Source of the DNA: Prosthecobacter sp. SYSU 5D2
GTDB lineage: Bacteria > Verrucomicrobiota > Verrucomicrobiia > Verrucomicrobiales > Verrucomicrobiaceae
DNA length: 64,000 nt
Reading direction: 5' to 3'
NCBI RefSeq assembly: GCF_039655865.1
Contig: NZ_JBBYXL010000009.1
Location: 62,001 to 126,000 of the forward strand
Part shown: piece by piece, positions 1 through 34,229 of the stretch
Numbering within the stretch: position 1 is the first letter of the stretch
Layout of the letters: each line of letters begins with the position of its first letter
Program-made: the position numbers and the translations under genes
The notes under the pieces: generated by a model
What the model was told of the DNA's origin: nothing
Databases searched by the model: none
What the model saw: only the letters and a program-made list of their open reading frames with translations

Positions 1-3000
1 TCCAGATGCTGCACCAGATTATGAAAAGGCTCGGCAATGAAGGCATCCCTGCGATCCTCTCCAAACAGCAGGGAATCCCCATAAATCATGCCGCTGCATG
101 CGGACGTGTAGCGCCCGGCCTGCTTGAAATTGTGGTAGCGTTTTTCCGGCGCGCTGATGGGATACACAGGCGGATTGGAGCCGCCCGGCAGTTGCACCCG
201 TCCCTCAGGCGCGGCCAGATGAGGATTGCGTTTCAAGTATTGCTCCGGCAGCACATAGTGCCACAGCGGATGCGAATTCTGCGTGCCAAACCAGTTTCCC
301 CAGTCATCGCGGTTGCGGCCAAACTGTGCAGGTCCGCTTTGGGCCTCCACCTCGCCAGTATCTGGCCGGATACGAAAGTCCCGGCTGCCGACCATTGTCT
401 CCTTGCCAGTGCGTTTGGATAGCAGCCGCGTATCGGCTCCATGCCTGCCGTTGTGACCGCCCGCCGCCACATACACCCAGTTGTCCAGCCCCCAGCGCAG
501 GCCGTTGGCACGCAGTTGCTGGTTGCCCTCGCTCAGGCCGGTATAAAGCACCTTCTTGATGTCCGCCTTGCCATCACCCGTGCTGTCTTCCATGTATAAA
601 ATATCCGGTGCGGCCGTGATGATGCAGCCGCCCCGCCAGGTGAGGATGCCATTGGGAAAATTCAGTCCATCCGCAAAGACACGGCTCTGATCATACACAC
701 CGTCTCCATTTACATCCTCCAGGATGCGCACCCGGCCACCTGCCGCGCCGCTGTCATCCAGGCCGAGTGGATAATCCGCCATCTCCACCACCCACAGCCG
801 CCCCTGGCCATCCCAGTCAAAAGCCACCGGGTCCAGCACCAGCGGCTCAGCAGCCACCACAGCGGCTTCATAACCCTCAGGCAAGTGCAGGCTTTGCAGA
901 CTCTTTTCAGGAGACATCGGTTCAGAGTCCGGCTTCTTCGCAGGCGGTTTCGGTGCCGTGCGCTCCGCCGCTTTGAAATGCGCCATCACCTGCGCTGCTG
1001 TCAGCGCATGAGGATAAAGAGCTACTTCATCCAGCTTTCCCTCCAGCCCGGCAAACCCGTCGCAACGCCCGCCAAAGAACACGCTGCCTCCGTTTTCCCG
1101 CAAGGTCCATTCCGCCTCCGCCTCGATCTCCACCTGCCCGTCCAGATAGACCGTGAGCTTCTTCTCATCCCGCACCAGCATCACATGATGCCAGTCCTTG
1201 AGCGATAACGGAGACTTGCCAGCAACCACTTTTCCAATCCCGTTACCCGTGTAAAAAAACAGCCGTCCAGGACTGACAACGCCACTCGTGCCGCCGATGC
1301 CCAGATGCTCCCCAAGCGCACGTTTGTCACCGTCCACACCGCGTGAAAAAAGATACCCGGTCACCGGACGCACATCTTCCGGCAGCCCGTTCCAAAACCA
1401 CAACTCGGCGCTGTATTGCCTGCCCAAATCCGCCTTCTGGATATGCAGACGCCCACCTGCCACATGCACCGCCCGGTTGATCTCAGGCCCTGTAAAAGGC
1501 GATGGTTTTTCAGGCGGCGCCGAAATCTCACCGCCCTTCCGTTGCACCCCCGGCAGGCCATAGGCCACACCAGGTTCCCAAGCAGCGTCCAGGTCTTTCG
1601 CCGCCGCCCGGGGTGAAGGCCCCGCCAGATCATTCAGCCGCCAGTAGGCCAGCGGTTCATCCTTCATCACCGCCTCACTGTAAGGGCTGGCGGCATCCAC
1701 CAGTGGTCGCCGTGGTTGCCCGCCCGATACCTGCTCCAGCAGGCCCAGCACCGCCTCCACGATCTTGGGCTCGGCTTCCACTTCCAGTCCGGCAGTGCGG
1801 GCAGGCCAGGTCGTGTAGCCGCCCAGGCGATGCTGCTCCGGCGGCGGAATGTATCCTTCCGCACCGTTGGCCAGTTCAATATTAAACGTGGCCGACAGCG
1901 GACTCTGCGCCTTGATCTTCAATCCAGTGATTCCATACACTTCGTTAGGCATGGCAGCGATGCCCAGCCCGCCGATTCTCAGCGCTTGCAGCACCACTTC
2001 CGTGCGCGGATTTTCATGGATCCACACCGCCTGTTCGGCATAGACCTCCGGCCTGTCCTTGGGCGGCGTATCACCGCGCTTTTCATTGATCGGCTTCGCC
2101 CATTCGAGCCTCTTTGGCGATGGCACCCGCCGCCCCATTGGCAGACGCGTTTCCGCCATGGCCAGCGGCACGTCCGCCTCGTGACGGATGCCTTTATAAG
2201 CCTCCAAGCCAATCGCAGCCAGGCCCTCCGCATACTGCTGGCGCGTGTAGCCCTCCCGCTTCGCCTGACTGTAGTCCATCCAGTGCAGATCACCGCTGGT
2301 GCCTTGGGAAACTATGCCCACAGCTTCGCCTCCCAGCCCTTTTTCCAATGCCCGCGCCACGTCCCCAAAATAGTCCGCCGAAAACCCACCCAAATTCCCA
2401 AAGTAATGCATGGAAAAATTCGCCAGCACACACAGCGGCTTGTCATTCGCCGCATCAACCAGGCTGAGCAAAGAGAGCTGCGGATCGGTGGGCCCCGATG
2501 GCCCCACGTAATCTGGATTCAGATAACCCGGATGCATCATCGCACGTACGGTCTTCTCACCAAACGGGTCCACATCCATCTTGTCGCCTCGGCGGATCCA
2601 GCGCCGACAGTTCGTATAACCATGAGCATCCACCGCCGTCCATCCGGCCTTCGCCGGCCGCATCTGGCTATGGGCTTTGACAATAGCCTCCGCCACCTGC
2701 GGGATCATTTGCGCCGTATAGACTTCATCCTTCCGTGTACCCAGGCACATATTCATCGTCCCCGGAGCGGAGTGCGTATGCGTGGAAGAAATCAGGATGC
2801 GTCCTGACGGGATCCCCGTCTCCTGCGCGACCCGCGCCTTGATGGCATCGCACACATCCGTCGGCAGCATGCAGGAATCCACCACACAGATCACCAGCGT
2901 TTCCTCCCCCGACTTCAGCGCCAGCGCGCGAGCATAGAGCGGATCATCCACCCGGTTCCACAGCACCTGGGTAAAGCCGCCATTGCGGATGGCCGGCAGC

Positions 3001-29421: not shown

Positions 29422-29535
29422 CCGCAGGGGTTCGAGTGCGAGCATTATCTGCCCCTTTGCCTACGTTATCATGCGGTGTTACTGAGTCCTGGCTGGATAT
29501 TCCGGTTCCATCAGGCAGTTAGTTGCCCCCCGCTC

Positions 29536-32217
29536 ATGAAAGAACGTTATCATATCATCTCCACACTCGCCACTGGCGGCAGCGGCAGCATTCTGCATGC
29601 CTGGGACAATGCGCAAAGTCGGGATGTCGCCATCAAGCGCCTCAACGGTGGCGCAGTGATGAAAGACTTCCTCCTGCGCGAAGCCCGCTCCCTTTACGCC
29701 CTTCGCCATCCCAACATCGTCACCATCCATGAATATGACAGTGATGAAGAAGGCGCCTACATGGTCATGGAGATGATCAAGGGCGAGTCCCTGGAAAAAC
29801 AGGTGACCTCCCACGGACCGCTCTCCATCCCCGACTTCCGGTTACTCGTCATGAAGACCCTGGATGCAATCACGGCAGCCCATGAGGTGGGCATCATCCA
29901 CCGGGATCTGAAGCCTGAAAACATCATGCTGCCGTGGAACCAGCACAGCCAGTTTGAGGTAAAGCTCATTGATTTCGGCCTGTCCCAGCAGCTTCCGCCC
30001 CAGGGCGGACAGCAGGATTCCATGATCGGCTCCATCCACTTCATGGCCCCAGAGCAGTTTGGCAGCGGTCATGTGGATGTGCGCACCGACCTCTATGCCC
30101 TCGGCTGCATCTATTACTTTGCCCTCACGGGCAAATATCCCTTTCCGGGGGAGCAAAGGCATCAGGTCATCACCGCGCATCTGTATCCGCCCAAAGAACC
30201 GCTGGGAGAGCTGCGCCCGGATCTCAGTGACGGGCTCTGTGCCTGGGTAGAACAACTGATGAGCATCCAGCCTGCTTATCGTGCCGCCAATGCGACAGAT
30301 GCCCTCGCCGCCTTCCGCCGCCTGGGGACCCAGTTGCAGATTCAGACCGCCAGCGGTGTGGAGGAGCCGGCCTATATGATTTTGGAAGAGGAGGAACTGC
30401 CTGCGGCACTGGTGGTGGAGGAGGCTGAAGAAGAGGCCCATGTCCTGGAGGCTGCACCCGATGAGGAGGAACCTGAGCATGCCGCCCTGATCGAAGCTGA
30501 TGCACAAACAGAAGCCGAAGGAGATATGGCATCTGAAGCTGCGCCAGAACCAGAAATTGAACCGGAACCGGAGTCGCCGCCCACCCCCGCCTATGTATCG
30601 GAAGAAGAAGACTATGTCCCAGCCGCACCCGTTCATGCGCCCGCGCTGAGTGCCGCCCCCGTGGCTCCGCTGGCACCCCCCCAGGCCTACCATGAAACCC
30701 ACTCATCAGAGGATCTCCCAAGCTCCCGCCGGATGCCTGCGACACCTGGAAAAGGCAAGCCAAAGCGCCGGGCCAACCTGCAACTCATCATCACCGCCTT
30801 TGTCGTCATCCTGATCGCCCAGTTCGCCCTCGTCAGTTACTTCAAATATGCTGGTCGTGAATCCCGCGAACAGCGGCTGGTCGAGCTCAGCGAAAGCGAG
30901 CAGGCGGTCGGCTCCGATGTGGATGTGCGCATGCTGCTGGACTTCCTGGCCGACCCCACCCACCAGGAGCCTGCAGCCAGGGCCCTGTCCAAGCTGCAGG
31001 GCGGCTCTTACATCAATGAAATCCTCAACGCGCATCTGGAAAAGGTGAAAAGCTATCCGGTCAGCGCCCGGCTGGTCCAGGTCATCGGCCAGCGGCGCAG
31101 TGCAGGCGCCTTTGACACCCTGCTGGAGCTGGCAAGTGACAAGCGGGGAGATGTGCGCCAGGCCGCCTGGACCGCGCTGGGCCGCATCACCCCCGCAGAT
31201 AAGATGCCCCAGGTGCTGAACCTCCTGGGCAGCAGCAACAAACGGGATCACGAATACATCGAGAAGGCTCTCATCACCGCCATTGAATCCTCCATGGACC
31301 GCCCGGCGGCCACCCAGCATACCTTGCAGGCCTTCCGCAGGGCTACTGACCGCGCCGAAACCCGCACCCTGCTCTTCAATGTCCTCACCCGTGTCGGCGG
31401 GGATGAGACCCTGGCCATCGTCAGTGAGGCCATCTCAGATCCATCTGCCAAGATCCGCCTCGCGGCCATCATGATCCTGGCAGAATACCCTACCCACGAA
31501 CCCCTCGCCGCCATCACTGCCCGCTTCCCGGATGAAACGGATGAAGAATGCCGCGTTTACCTCCTGCTGGCTGCGCGTGAGCTCATCAGCAAACCCGGCC
31601 CCAGCTCCCAGCAGCAGCTCTTTGTCCATGGCCAGAGCCTCTATGCGAATGCCAAAGGCGATGTCGAAAAGCGCTACATTCTTAGCGTGCTAAGCCGGAC
31701 CATTGCCCCCGGCACCGCCACCTTTTTTGAAGAATTCGCCAAGAGTTCAGATGCCGCATTGAAGGGCGAGGCCCGCAGCCTGGCCAAGGCCTTCCGCGAC
31801 AAGCTCGAGCAGGTCATCTCCATCCCCCCCGGTGGCAGCGCCACCCTCCCTGCCGACAAGGCCGACTACCGCCTGGGCGGCACTCTCATCCAGGAAGAAG
31901 GCGCGCTCATCAACTGGACCCAGGAGGGCGACTGGGCCTCCTGGCTGGTGGAAGTACCCGCCAACGGTGAATACGAGATCGCCCTCTATCAATCCCACAC
32001 CAATGACCAGCTCGGCACCTATGAGATCCTGCTGGCCGGCCAGACCCTGCTGACCTCCGTCGTGAAGACCGACAGTGCCAACGATTTCAAAGGCTTCGTC
32101 GTGGGCAGCATCAAAGTCCAGGAAGCCGGCATCTACCGCCTGCGCGTTCGCGCCAAGACCCTTCCCGCAGAAGGGGAGCTGTTCCGCGTGCAGCGTCTGG
32201 TGGTAAAGGCTTTGTAA
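29536..32217 (+). CDS. Transmembrane Ser/Thr protein kinase with extracytoplasmic HEAT repeats and jelly-roll domain
   Basis: This is an 893-residue protein. The kinase domain is at about 5-265: glycine loop TLATGGSGSILHAWD, VAIKRL (Lys34), HRDLKPEN (Asp124), DFG (Asp146), MAPEQF, DLYALGCIYYFALTGKYPF. An acidic Glu/Ala/Pro linker covers about 285-395. One transmembrane helix is at 415-436 (LIITAFVVILIAQFALVSYF). HEAT-like repeats follow at about 460-740 (RGDVRQAAWTALGRI, SAKIRLAAIMILAEY). The C-terminus (about 765-893) is a beta-rich carbohydrate-binding-like domain (INWTQEGDWASWLVEVPANG, YEIALYQSHTND). It probably senses an envelope or extracellular signal and phosphorylates cytoplasmic targets. 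The start at 29536 puts the kinase fold at the N-terminus. Confidence 0.93.
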   Translation: MKERYHIISTLATGGSGSILHAWDNAQSRDVAIKRLNGGAVMKDFLLREARSLYALRHPNIVTIHEYDSDEEGAYMVMEMIKGESLEKQVTSHGPLSIPDFRLLVMKTLDAITAAHEVGIIHRDLKPENIMLPWNQHSQFEVKLIDFGLSQQLPPQGGQQDSMIGSIHFMAPEQFGSGHVDVRTDLYALGCIYYFALTGKYPFPGEQRHQVITAHLYPPKEPLGELRPDLSDGLCAWVEQLMSIQPAYRAANATDALAAFRRLGTQLQIQTASGVEEPAYMILEEEELPAALVVEEAEEEAHVLEAAPDEEEPEHAALIEADAQTEAEGDMASEAAPEPEIEPEPESPPTPAYVSEEEDYVPAAPVHAPALSAAPVAPLAPPQAYHETHSSEDLPSSRRMPATPGKGKPKRRANLQLIITAFVVILIAQFALVSYFKYAGRESREQRLVELSESEQAVGSDVDVRMLLDFLADPTHQEPAARALSKLQGGSYINEILNAHLEKVKSYPVSARLVQVIGQRRSAGAFDTLLELASDKRGDVRQAAWTALGRITPADKMPQVLNLLGSSNKRDHEYIEKALITAIESSMDRPAATQHTLQAFRRATDRAETRTLLFNVLTRVGGDETLAIVSEAISDPSAKIRLAAIMILAEYPTHEPLAAITARFPDETDEECRVYLLLAARELISKPGPSSQQQLFVHGQSLYANAKGDVEKRYILSVLSRTIAPGTATFFEEFAKSSDAALKGEARSLAKAFRDKLEQVISIPPGGSATLPADKADYRLGGTLIQEEGALINWTQEGDWASWLVEVPANGEYEIALYQSHTNDQLGTYEILLAGQTLLTSVVKTDSANDFKGFVVGSIKVQEAGIYRLRVRAKTLPAEGELFRVQRLVVKAL

Positions 32218-32282: not shown

Positions 32283-33161
32283 TCAAACACCCTCCAGCCC
32301 GCGCAGTTTGTCCGGATTCCGCACGGCATAGATGGCCTGGATGCGTCCCGCCTCCACATCAATGGTTAGCGCGGTGACCAGGCGGCCGCCTTCATGGATA
32401 AGGATGCCCGGTGCGCCATTGAACCGGCACGGAACCAGTCTGCGGCCTTCATGCGCCTGCGGACGATGATGCATCACCCCGACAAGGAACCGCGCCACGG
32501 CATCCACCCCACGCATGATATCCGGCAGGGCAGAGACTTTGCCGCCGCCGTCCGAGCGCATTTCCACAGACTCCGCCAGCAGTGACTTGAGCTCCTGCAA
32601 CTCCCCCGCATAAGCCGCTTTCAGAAAGGCCTCCAGCAGCCGCTGATGATCCTCCACCCTGGTCTCAAACCTAGGCCGCGCCGCCTGCACAGCGGCCCGC
32701 GCACGCGAGGCCAGCTTGCGGCAGGCCGGTCCGGACTTGCCCAGGATCACCGCGATCTCATCAAACTCGTGGCCAAACACATCGTGCAGCAAAAAAGCCG
32801 CACGCTCCGCAGGCGAAAGCTTTTCCAGCGCCAGCATCAGCGCCATGGAGACGGATTCATCCACGCCTGCGGCCACCGGACCACCGTCTTCTGTAGTCTC
32901 ATGAAAAGGCTCCGGCAGCCACACACCGCAGTAGCTCTCCCGCCGCCGCCTGGCGGACTTCAGCACATCCAGCGCCTGCCGGCTGCAGGCTGTCACCAGC
33001 CAGGCACGGGCATCCCGCACCTTTGCGAGCTCCGCCCGGCTCCATTTCACCCAGGTGTCCTGCACTACATCCTGCGCCTCCGCCAGCACGCCCGTCATGC
33101 GGTAGGCGATCCCCAACAGCAGGCTGCGGTGCTGCTCAAAAAGGCGGGCTTGTTCTTCCAT
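32283..33161 (-). CDS. ECF41-family RNA polymerase sigma factor with fused SnoaL-like domain
   Basis: This 292-residue sigma factor has region 2 (LLLGIAYRMTGVLAEAQDVVQDTWVKW), region 4 (LSPAERAAFLLHDVFGHEFDEIAVILGKS) and a C-terminal SnoaL-like domain from about 170. The family marks of ECF41 are present: WLPEP between regions 2 and 4, DGGGKV in the SnoaL domain, and NPDKL near the C-terminus. In ECF41 the SnoaL domain, not a separate anti-sigma factor, controls activity. A GTG nine bases upstream (33170) overlaps the azoreductase stop and is an alternative start; I prefer the ATG at 33161. A matching promoter lies upstream of the operon. Confidence 0.93.
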   Translation of the reverse strand: MEEQARLFEQHRSLLLGIAYRMTGVLAEAQDVVQDTWVKWSRAELAKVRDARAWLVTACSRQALDVLKSARRRRESYCGVWLPEPFHETTEDGGPVAAGVDESVSMALMLALEKLSPAERAAFLLHDVFGHEFDEIAVILGKSGPACRKLASRARAAVQAARPRFETRVEDHQRLLEAFLKAAYAGELQELKSLLAESVEMRSDGGGKVSALPDIMRGVDAVARFLVGVMHHRPQAHEGRRLVPCRFNGAPGILIHEGGRLVTALTIDVEAGRIQAIYAVRNPDKLRGLEGV

Positions 33162-33166
33162 CGGTC

Positions 33167-34192
33167 TCACTGGCTGTTGTTTGACATCAGAACGGCAAAA
33201 CGCCAGCCGTCTTCGGTTTTGCGGAGTACATGCGTGTATTTCCGCCGGGCCTGGTAATGCCCCGTTTCCGCCCCTCCCGCCTCCACCCCGGACTCCTGGC
33301 TGCCCGTCTCGACCGCCAGTACACCATCCCGCTCGATCCTCAGCGGATTCTGCTGCAAGGTAATAAATCGCGTCCCTGCCAGCAGGTCCGTCTCGCAGCG
33401 CAGAAAGGCCTCTCTTCCCGTCACCATTTCCCGCCCTTGCAGCATCAGCACAATGTCATCCGTCACCAGCCTGGCATAAGCCGCCGCATCCCCCTTTAAA
33501 ATCGCCCGCACCTGCCCCTCCCGCAGCGCCGCGATCTCCGCCCGGTCCTGCGCCGTGAACAGGCCGCGCCATTCGATGCCGTCCGCCGGCGGCCCAGGCT
33601 GGAACCACACCTCCACGTCCGCCCAGGCCCGTGTCATCGCCTGCTCCAGTTGCACCGGCCCCAGCATCGTGCCCTCCAGCGCCGTCCACTGCACACGGTC
33701 AAACCCCAGGATGCGAAAAACCGAATGCAGCAGCGGCCCCTGAAAGTCCGGCCACAGCGGCCCCACCCCTCCTCGTGCTGTGAGGATCCACGCAGACTTT
33801 CCGCTCAGGAGCCCGTGAAAGCCCTTCTCATCCATCGTGAAAGTCCGCCCCGCACGGATGACATGGTCCGCCCACGCCTTCAGCGCCGAGGGCGTGCCAA
33901 AATTATAAACTGGCGTGCTCACCAGCACCTCATCCGCAGACTCCAGCTCCGAGATCAGCTCCTCCGACAGCGCCATCGAAGACACCGTCTCCCCATCCGC
34001 CACCAGCTGCCCCATGAACGCAGCCAGCGTGACCGCATTCAGATGCGGCACCGGCTCCCGCGCCAGATCCCGCCGCATTACACGGCCCTCCGGATGCGCC
34101 TCCAGCCAGCGTTTTTCAAAATGATCCCCCAAAGCCCGCGAGTGCGATCCTTCAGCCCTGATGCTTGCGTCAATTCTCAACAGTGTTCTCAT
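33167..34192 (-). CDS. FMN-dependent NADH-azoreductase fused to a SnoaL-like domain
   Basis: In this 341-residue protein, residues 1-~205 are an AzoR-type flavodoxin fold: RIDASIRAEGSHSRALGDHF, MALSEELISELESADEVLVS, TPVYNFGTPSALKAWADHVI, RTFTMDEKGFHGLLSGKSAWILTARGG-like segments. Residues about 215-341 form an NTF2/SnoaL-like domain (RAEIAALREGQVRAILKGDA, RKYTHVLRKTEDGWRFAVLM). AzoR reduces quinones and azo compounds with NADH. ECF41 sigma factors are usually encoded beside a target oxidoreductase or similar protein, which fits this pair. The fusion of SnoaL to the reductase, next to a sigma factor that also carries one, is unusual. An ECF41-type promoter lies directly upstream. Confidence 0.88.
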   Translation of the reverse strand: MRTLLRIDASIRAEGSHSRALGDHFEKRWLEAHPEGRVMRRDLAREPVPHLNAVTLAAFMGQLVADGETVSSMALSEELISELESADEVLVSTPVYNFGTPSALKAWADHVIRAGRTFTMDEKGFHGLLSGKSAWILTARGGVGPLWPDFQGPLLHSVFRILGFDRVQWTALEGTMLGPVQLEQAMTRAWADVEVWFQPGPPADGIEWRGLFTAQDRAEIAALREGQVRAILKGDAAAYARLVTDDIVLMLQGREMVTGREAFLRCETDLLAGTRFITLQQNPLRIERDGVLAVETGSQESGVEAGGAETGHYQARRKYTHVLRKTEDGWRFAVLMSNNSQ

Positions 34193-34202
34193 GCACCCCC
34201 CT

Positions 34203-34229
34203 GACGAGACAGGCCCCCGATGTGTGACA
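34203..34229 (-). promoter_or_regulatory. ECF41-type promoter
   Basis: On the minus strand, TGTCACA (34229-34223) and CGTC (34206-34203) are separated by 16 bp. This matches the conserved promoter elements reported for ECF41 sigma factors. It lies 10 bp before the azoreductase-SnoaL start codon, which suggests autoregulation of the azoreductase/ECF41 operon and a nearly leaderless message. Confidence 0.7.

Follow-up and report, generated by a model that had tools for sequence, protein, structure and literature searches.

The operon at positions 32,283 to 34,229 of the window (the whole 64,000-nt stretch of Prosthecobacter sp. SYSU 5D2 DNA analyzed here) is, when all observations are taken together, probably an autoregulated ECF41 operon whose mRNA is leaderless or nearly so. 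The circuit is of a known kind, its core arrangement having already been published (Wecke 2012), and the enzyme architecture is rare. What is novel here is a phylum-wide pattern in the spacing between promoter and start codon.

Operon layout and the sigma factor

The features of the locus are compiled in Table 1. The end of the enzyme gene overlaps the start of the ECF41 sigma gene by 4 nt. A first-pass annotation of this DNA had placed TGTCACA-N16-CGTC 10 bp before the first start codon; the coordinates (34229-34203) were verified, exactly 10 nt separating CGTC (34203) from the ATG of the 341-aa enzyme gene, and what had gone unremarked was how short this distance is for a usual leader. The sequence AATCCTGTCAC is present twice upstream of the operon, at 34367-34357 and 34234-34224 on the minus strand, and at the distal copy (TGTCACG) a 16-nt spacer (N16) is not followed by CGTC. 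A 913-aa ORF (29476-32217, plus strand), whose N-terminal part looks Ser/Thr kinase-like by eye, converges on the operon.

Table 1. Features of the ECF41 operon, in coordinates of the window
Feature	Position	Strand	Remarks
AzoR-like flavin reductase with C-terminal SnoaL/DUF4440 domain	33167..34192	-	ATG start, 341 aa
Flavodoxin_2 domain, residues 3-191	33620..34186	-	Pfam E 3.4e-38, above cut-off
NTF2-like (DUF4440/SnoaL_3/SnoaL_4) domain, residues ~214-333	33194..33553	-	Pfam and moderate-to-low-confidence models
ECF41 (SigJ-type) sigma factor	32283..33170	-	GTG start overlapping upstream stop, 295 aa
WLPEP motif between sigma2 and sigma4	32907..32921	-	named ECF41 feature
SnoaL_2-like C-terminal extension of sigma factor	32298..32633	-	weak SnoaL_2 match and SigJ alignment
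DGGGKV motif of sigma factor	32535..32552	-	
NPDKL motif of sigma factor	32304..32318	-	
ECF41 promoter	34203..34229	-	TGTCACA 34229-34223, 16-nt spacer, CGTC 34206-34203
10-nt gap, CGTC to ATG	34193..34202	-	transcription start predicted ~34196-34194

The sigma factor scored 328.8 bits with the SigJ model NF007214 (cut-off 271) and narrowly missed the sister model TIGR02957 (312 vs 323.25 bits). Both Sigma70_r2 and Sigma70_r4_2 were above the Pfam cut-off, and residues 9-291 aligned to the structure 5xe7, which we take to be SigJ of Mycobacterium tuberculosis. The WLPEP, DGGGKV and NPDKL motifs reported at first pass were all three found. The protein thus combines the sigma2 and sigma4 domains, a SigJ-type profile match and a large C-terminal extension with WLPEP, and its gene adjoins a COE gene, here that of the Flavodoxin_2 protein, with the promoter lying before the operon. 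The profiles, motifs, gene overlap and promoter position bear out the earlier assignment of an ECF41 operon with its own promoter. When the genome was searched with the SigJ model, only 1 of 15 matches was above the cut-off (runner-up, 55 vs 328 bits).

Promoter matches in the genome

The ECF41 promoter has been described as TGTCACA-N16-CGTC, and the order COE>ECF was reported at 107 loci, 97 of them with the motif, by Wecke et al. (PMC3426412). In the window, a loose form of this pattern (N14-18) occurred once, and at least one occurrence was obtained in 10 of 100 shuffles; the 5.87-Mb genome gave 8 matches as against 6 for a reversed control. Rarity of the motif, being no better than chance genome-wide, was rejected as evidence. 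Since the counts are near chance, the case for the promoter rests on its position and on its recurrence at other ECF41 loci. The window copy is alone among the 8 matches in combining N16, no overlapping ORF of at least 150 aa and a start codon close behind. A wider regulon was rejected as well: 6 of the 8 matches overlap ORFs of at least 150 aa, and at L028 no start of a 60-aa ORF lies within 120 nt of the motif. The operon itself is therefore the sole target predicted for this sigma factor in the genome.

Promoter-to-ATG spacing across ECF41 loci

The spacing was compared between 28 ECF41 loci of the host phylum (23 genomes) and 50 loci from elsewhere, namely 20 from the phylum of a Kofleriaceae MAG, 21 proteobacterial, 2 cyanobacterial, 1 spirochaetal and 6 actinobacterial, the last hand-picked from 60 listed plasmid matches; the phylum labels Myxococcota and Pseudomonadota in this comparison set are inferred. 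For each locus we took the best motif match (no more than 1 mismatch, N15-17) that precedes the sigma gene on its own strand, and measured from it to the next ATG opening an ORF of at least 100 aa, a rule that can misplace starts. Two loci of a Fulvivirga MAG with a divergent sigma factor (L175, L177) had been left out beforehand. Unscorable loci were L074 and L081 of the host phylum, with no motif by the rule, and L176, L197, L198, L200, L221, L224 and L225 among the others. Two rows of other phyla with the first ATG at 0 and 1 nt are likely artefacts and were tallied as not short.

In the host phylum, 7-13 nt separated the -10 element from the ATG in 21 of 26 scored loci (28 examined), the median being 11 nt, while elsewhere such spacing was found in 5 of 43 scored loci (50 examined). 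By group, short spacing was seen in 3/16 loci of the Kofleriaceae MAG's phylum (13 being not short-spaced), 2/21 proteobacterial, 0/2 cyanobacterial, 0/1 spirochaetal and 0/3 actinobacterial loci, with medians of 24, 31, 39.5, 31 and 34 nt, respectively. The difference between the host phylum and the others gave a Mann-Whitney p of 6e-5 and a Fisher p of 9e-9, the latter overstated as the loci are related by descent. Two of the short loci deserve comment: at L080 the motif stands in front of a DUF2269-like ORF, with 1385 nt between it and the sigma gene (without this locus the count is 20 of 25), and the sigma gene of L078 contains an in-frame TAG.

The sigma tree places the host-phylum loci in three main places, its starred branches forcing at least three changes; proteobacterial and myxococcal rows are drawn between the host-phylum groups, and short spacing is present in the two larger groups. 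The spirochaetal locus lies within the first clade and is long (31 nt), which suggests that the spacing is tied to the host. Speaking against this, the Kofleriaceae locus adjacent to the first clade is short (8 nt), even though most scored loci of its phylum (13 of 16) are not; the spacing may have travelled with the operon. Among 28 proteins encoded behind the promoters (26 from the host phylum plus L165 and L171), 13 matched CMD, 4 Flavodoxin_2, 3 NmrA and 1 DUF2269, and 7 matched none of these four at E 0.001. The NmrA rows, assigned by eye, are L068 (10 nt), L187 (10 nt) and L188 (31 nt, or a GTG at 7). Five loci (L173, L204, L217, L218, L219) showed another arrangement: the ECF41-like genes are divergent, and their promoter motifs overlap and point in both directions about a near-palindrome, for example CGTCATGGGCATGACG.

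Translation initiation in short-spaced loci

A spacing of 7-13 nt leaves almost no space for a Shine-Dalgarno site between the transcription start and the ATG. Occurrence of GGAG, GAGG, AGGA or AAGG was counted within 18 nt before the ATG; this count was used, the tetramer count after the predicted start being empty for short loci by construction. In the host phylum such a tetramer was found in 2 of 21 short and 0 of 5 long loci, and elsewhere in 1 of 5 short and 30 of 38 long ones. The 16S 3' end CCTCCTTT, with the anti-Shine-Dalgarno CCTCC, is intact in the five host-phylum genomes examined, and in the window 8 of 36 crude genes have a Shine-Dalgarno-like tetramer. Some Verrucomicrobia are described as Shine-Dalgarno-scarce in PMC10783764, and use of these sites may be low in the phylum anyway; missing sites, being common in the host, are weak evidence for leaderlessness. 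General leaderless usage was not indicated in the host: TANNNT precedes the ATG by 5-8 nt in only 2 of the 36 crude window genes (rough calls).

Two of the five long host-phylum loci (L065 and L077) contain a 9-codon ORF starting 6 and 4 nt, respectively, after CGTC. These ORFs (MKPERKETP and MVSRRLTRR) terminate within an ATGA that they share with the start of the enzyme gene and are possible leaderless lead-in peptides, an arrangement that fits ribosomes loading at the 5' end and then restarting.

For the two genes mapped by Wecke et al. (2012) with 5'RACE, the paper gives leader lengths of 31/32 in Table 5 and 22/23 in the text (PMC3426412). We infer that the difference is the distance from the -10 element to the start, which would place the start ~9 nt after that element. 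If Table 5 counts from the -10 element, the leader of the window operon would be only a few nt long, with transcription beginning at the position predicted in Table 1.

For the host phylum as a whole, we lean towards the view that the mRNAs made with ECF41 sigma factors are generally leaderless. Promoter and start codon would then be a single unit of fixed geometry whatever the target enzyme, and the genes would be tied to leaderless initiation, while in other phyla the same sigma group would mostly use Shine-Dalgarno leaders. The spacing would thus allow a prediction from sequence alone, namely that messages of one sigma group carry a leader in some phyla and lack it in another, and it supplies a naturally occurring collection of candidate leaderless genes that share a regulator. 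A literature search, with subscription papers mostly beyond its reach, found no paper on leaderless ECF41 targets and none on an AzoR-SnoaL fusion.

Domains and fold of the fused enzyme

The first product had been called an azoreductase, a name that proved loose. The Flavodoxin_2 domain and AzoR relatives speak for it, and the solved relatives of the enzyme are AzoR enzymes and quinone reductases; the AzoR core residues Y96, N97, F98, P101 and S102 are invariant across 23 aligned sequences. On the other hand, the best NADH-azoreductase model was missed by far (63.9 vs 188 bits). By its sequence the enzyme is classed as AzoR-like, and the curated profile does not qualify it as an FMN-dependent NADH-azoreductase.

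The tail of the enzyme matched DUF4440 (E 8.6e-10), SnoaL_3 (4.2e-8) and SnoaL_4 (1e-6), all above the Pfam cut-off, and the sigma factor matched SnoaL_2 below it (14.2 vs 27 bits); with this qualification, the proposed SnoaL-like domain on each protein stood. An AlphaFold model of the full enzyme was good for the reductase (means of 72-98 over 10-residue blocks) and weaker for the tail, which had a mean pLDDT of 60 when folded alone. In structure comparison the tail model gave its top matches with putative ketosteroid isomerases and with NTF2-like proteins, SgcJ and SgcE6 among them, and the enzyme was above the cut-off of TIGR02246 (SgcJ/EcaC; 36.1 vs 33.95 bits). The models therefore make an NTF2-like fold of the tail likely, its details not being reliable.

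Recurrence of the fusion and of the AzoR-ECF41 pairing

Genome contigs were scanned with one peptide pattern and the best 80 of 584 AzoR-like loci were kept; more fusions may exist. The first-pass annotation had staked its reading on the sigma/azoreductase-SnoaL pairing being present elsewhere, and the pairing recurs once, in the Kofleriaceae MAG: among the best 80 of 584, L088 matches enzyme residues 3-340, has a DUF4440 tail above the Pfam cut-off and is directly followed by an ECF41 gene (L165). Of 123 scored AzoR-like ORFs (124 loci, L029 and L062 being the same gene; ORFs cut by contig ends included), 122 are without the tail, and only L088 reaches more than 50 aa past the reductase. The last 96 residues of the enzyme were unmatched in 55 other relatives, in 386 other genomes of the phylum and in 140 other genomes of the order (best loci only; the samples overlap). 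Likewise, no match at E 1e-15 reached them in 281 other genomes of the Kofleriaceae MAG's phylum, and a plasmid search gave no place covering 80% of the enzyme. As 34 other genomes of the genus yielded weak partial matches at most, in 3 of them, the gene was either gained in this lineage or widely lost.

An ECF41-like sigma gene was present in the fetched flanks of two among the best 80 of 584 loci, L088 and L099 (the latter with 28% identity and on the other strand), so AzoR-like genes are mostly without ECF41 linkage. Unfused AzoR-like genes precede ECF41 genes in G282, G858 and two cyanobacterial plasmids, and the promoter lies before those of G282 (GGTCACA, 12 nt to the ATG) and G858 (10 nt). 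Four loci (L062, L185, L058 and L059) have the same gene order with tail-less enzymes of 198, 202, 207 and 206 aa; the tail is therefore not needed for the AzoR>ECF41 arrangement. In the sigma tree, the window sigma factor (L061) groups with L185 and L062, all AzoR-linked (support 100/87), and the Kofleriaceae one (L165) adjoins the larger clade around these three with weak support (91/53). The Gloeocapsa plasmid locus (L059) carries a second perfect TGTCACA-N16-CGTC at 2165-2191 (plus strand). An ORF of 232 aa begins 39 nt behind it and itself precedes the AzoR-ECF41 pair; this ORF is a possible second target.

Proposed mechanism and alternative explanations

Starting from the observed gene order, domains and promoter, and from the recurrence of the promoter and its spacing at other loci, we propose that the sigma factor would be held by its own SnoaL_2-like extension until a small molecule lifts the inhibition; our guess for this molecule is an electrophile, for instance a quinone. 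The freed sigma factor would then transcribe its own operon from TGTCACA-N16-CGTC, and the first product, an AzoR/quinone-reductase-type FMN reductase with an NTF2-like domain, would remove the inducer; its substrate, like the inducer, is a guess. Transcription would start ~7-9 nt after CGTC, leaving no more than a few nt between the 5' end and the ATG, and the leaderless or nearly leaderless mRNA would be translated without a Shine-Dalgarno site, as predicted for most ECF41 targets of the phylum.

The message might alternatively come from a second upstream promoter that gives a normal leader, the ECF41 promoter yielding a minor transcript only. The upstream hydrolase ORF is separated from the enzyme ATG by 232 nt, which would leave room for such a promoter, and AGGGGGG stands immediately before the ATG; however, the 7-13 nt spacing recurs before different enzyme families (rows assigned by eye), which is hard to explain if the ECF41 transcript were untranslated, and the scarcity of Shine-Dalgarno-like tetramers in the short host-phylum loci (2 of 21) also argues against a normal leader, though such absence is common in the host. 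We regard this second promoter as unlikely. The proposal of the first-pass annotation that the two SnoaL domains share a ligand or bind each other, giving a redox-to-transcription link in which the reductase would be a redox-controlled anti-sigma factor or a ligand donor, appears more improbable still. It draws on the rarity of the extension among scored AzoR-like ORFs and on the fact that the sole full-length relative found among the best 80 of 584 also adjoins an ECF41 gene. Against it, BLASTP between the two domains detected nothing (best E 6.3), their Pfam families differ (DUF4440/SnoaL_3/SnoaL_4 in the enzyme tail, only SnoaL_2, weakly, in the sigma factor), the tail is missing at four loci of identical gene order, and Wecke et al. 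observed no role of COE proteins in signalling (PMC3426412); the proposed link is thus unsupported. Both fused systems retain the sigma factor's own extension and motifs (L165 has NPAKL for NPDKL), so the domain of the enzyme replaces nothing.

We give roughly even chances to a non-regulatory role of the tail, in which this NTF2-like domain would act in series with the reductase, either by catalysis or by holding the substrate; such a role is compatible with the leaderless, autoregulated operon preferred here. The ketosteroid isomerase and SgcJ/SgcE6 matches and the TIGR02246 score favor this role, but the domain model is of low confidence and the two fused proteins known here both adjoin ECF41 genes.

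Comparison with known ECF41 systems

According to Wecke et al. (2012), ECF41 genes adjoin carboxymuconolactone decarboxylases, oxidoreductases (Flavodoxin_2 is named) or epimerases, the COE gene is the sole detected target, and the set includes one verrucomicrobial protein (PMC3426412). RSP_0606-ecf41 of Rhodobacter sphaeroides and ydfG of Bacillus licheniformis resemble the window operon in promoter type, adjoining COE gene, C-terminal extension, WLPEP and single target. They differ in that the COE protein is a carboxymuconolactone decarboxylase, whereas that of the window is a Flavodoxin_2-SnoaL fusion, and in having a mapped leader of 22/23 nt with a ribosome-binding site, as against 10 nt from the -10 element to the ATG (PMC3426412). 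The SMb20029-rpoE9 pair of Sinorhizobium meliloti likewise has the COE gene upstream of the sigma gene as sole target with a matching promoter, its COE protein again being a carboxymuconolactone decarboxylase, according to PMC6180224.

The SigJ structure (5xe7) shares with the window sigma factor the sigma domains and the C-terminal extension over the aligned residues. The whole operon has a counterpart in the Kofleriaceae pair, in which a fused AzoR-SnoaL gene is likewise followed by an ECF41 gene behind a promoter of the same type, TGTCACA-N16-GGTC, 8 nt before the ATG; it differs in its -10 element (GGTC vs CGTC in the window), and the two fused enzymes share 43-45% identity.
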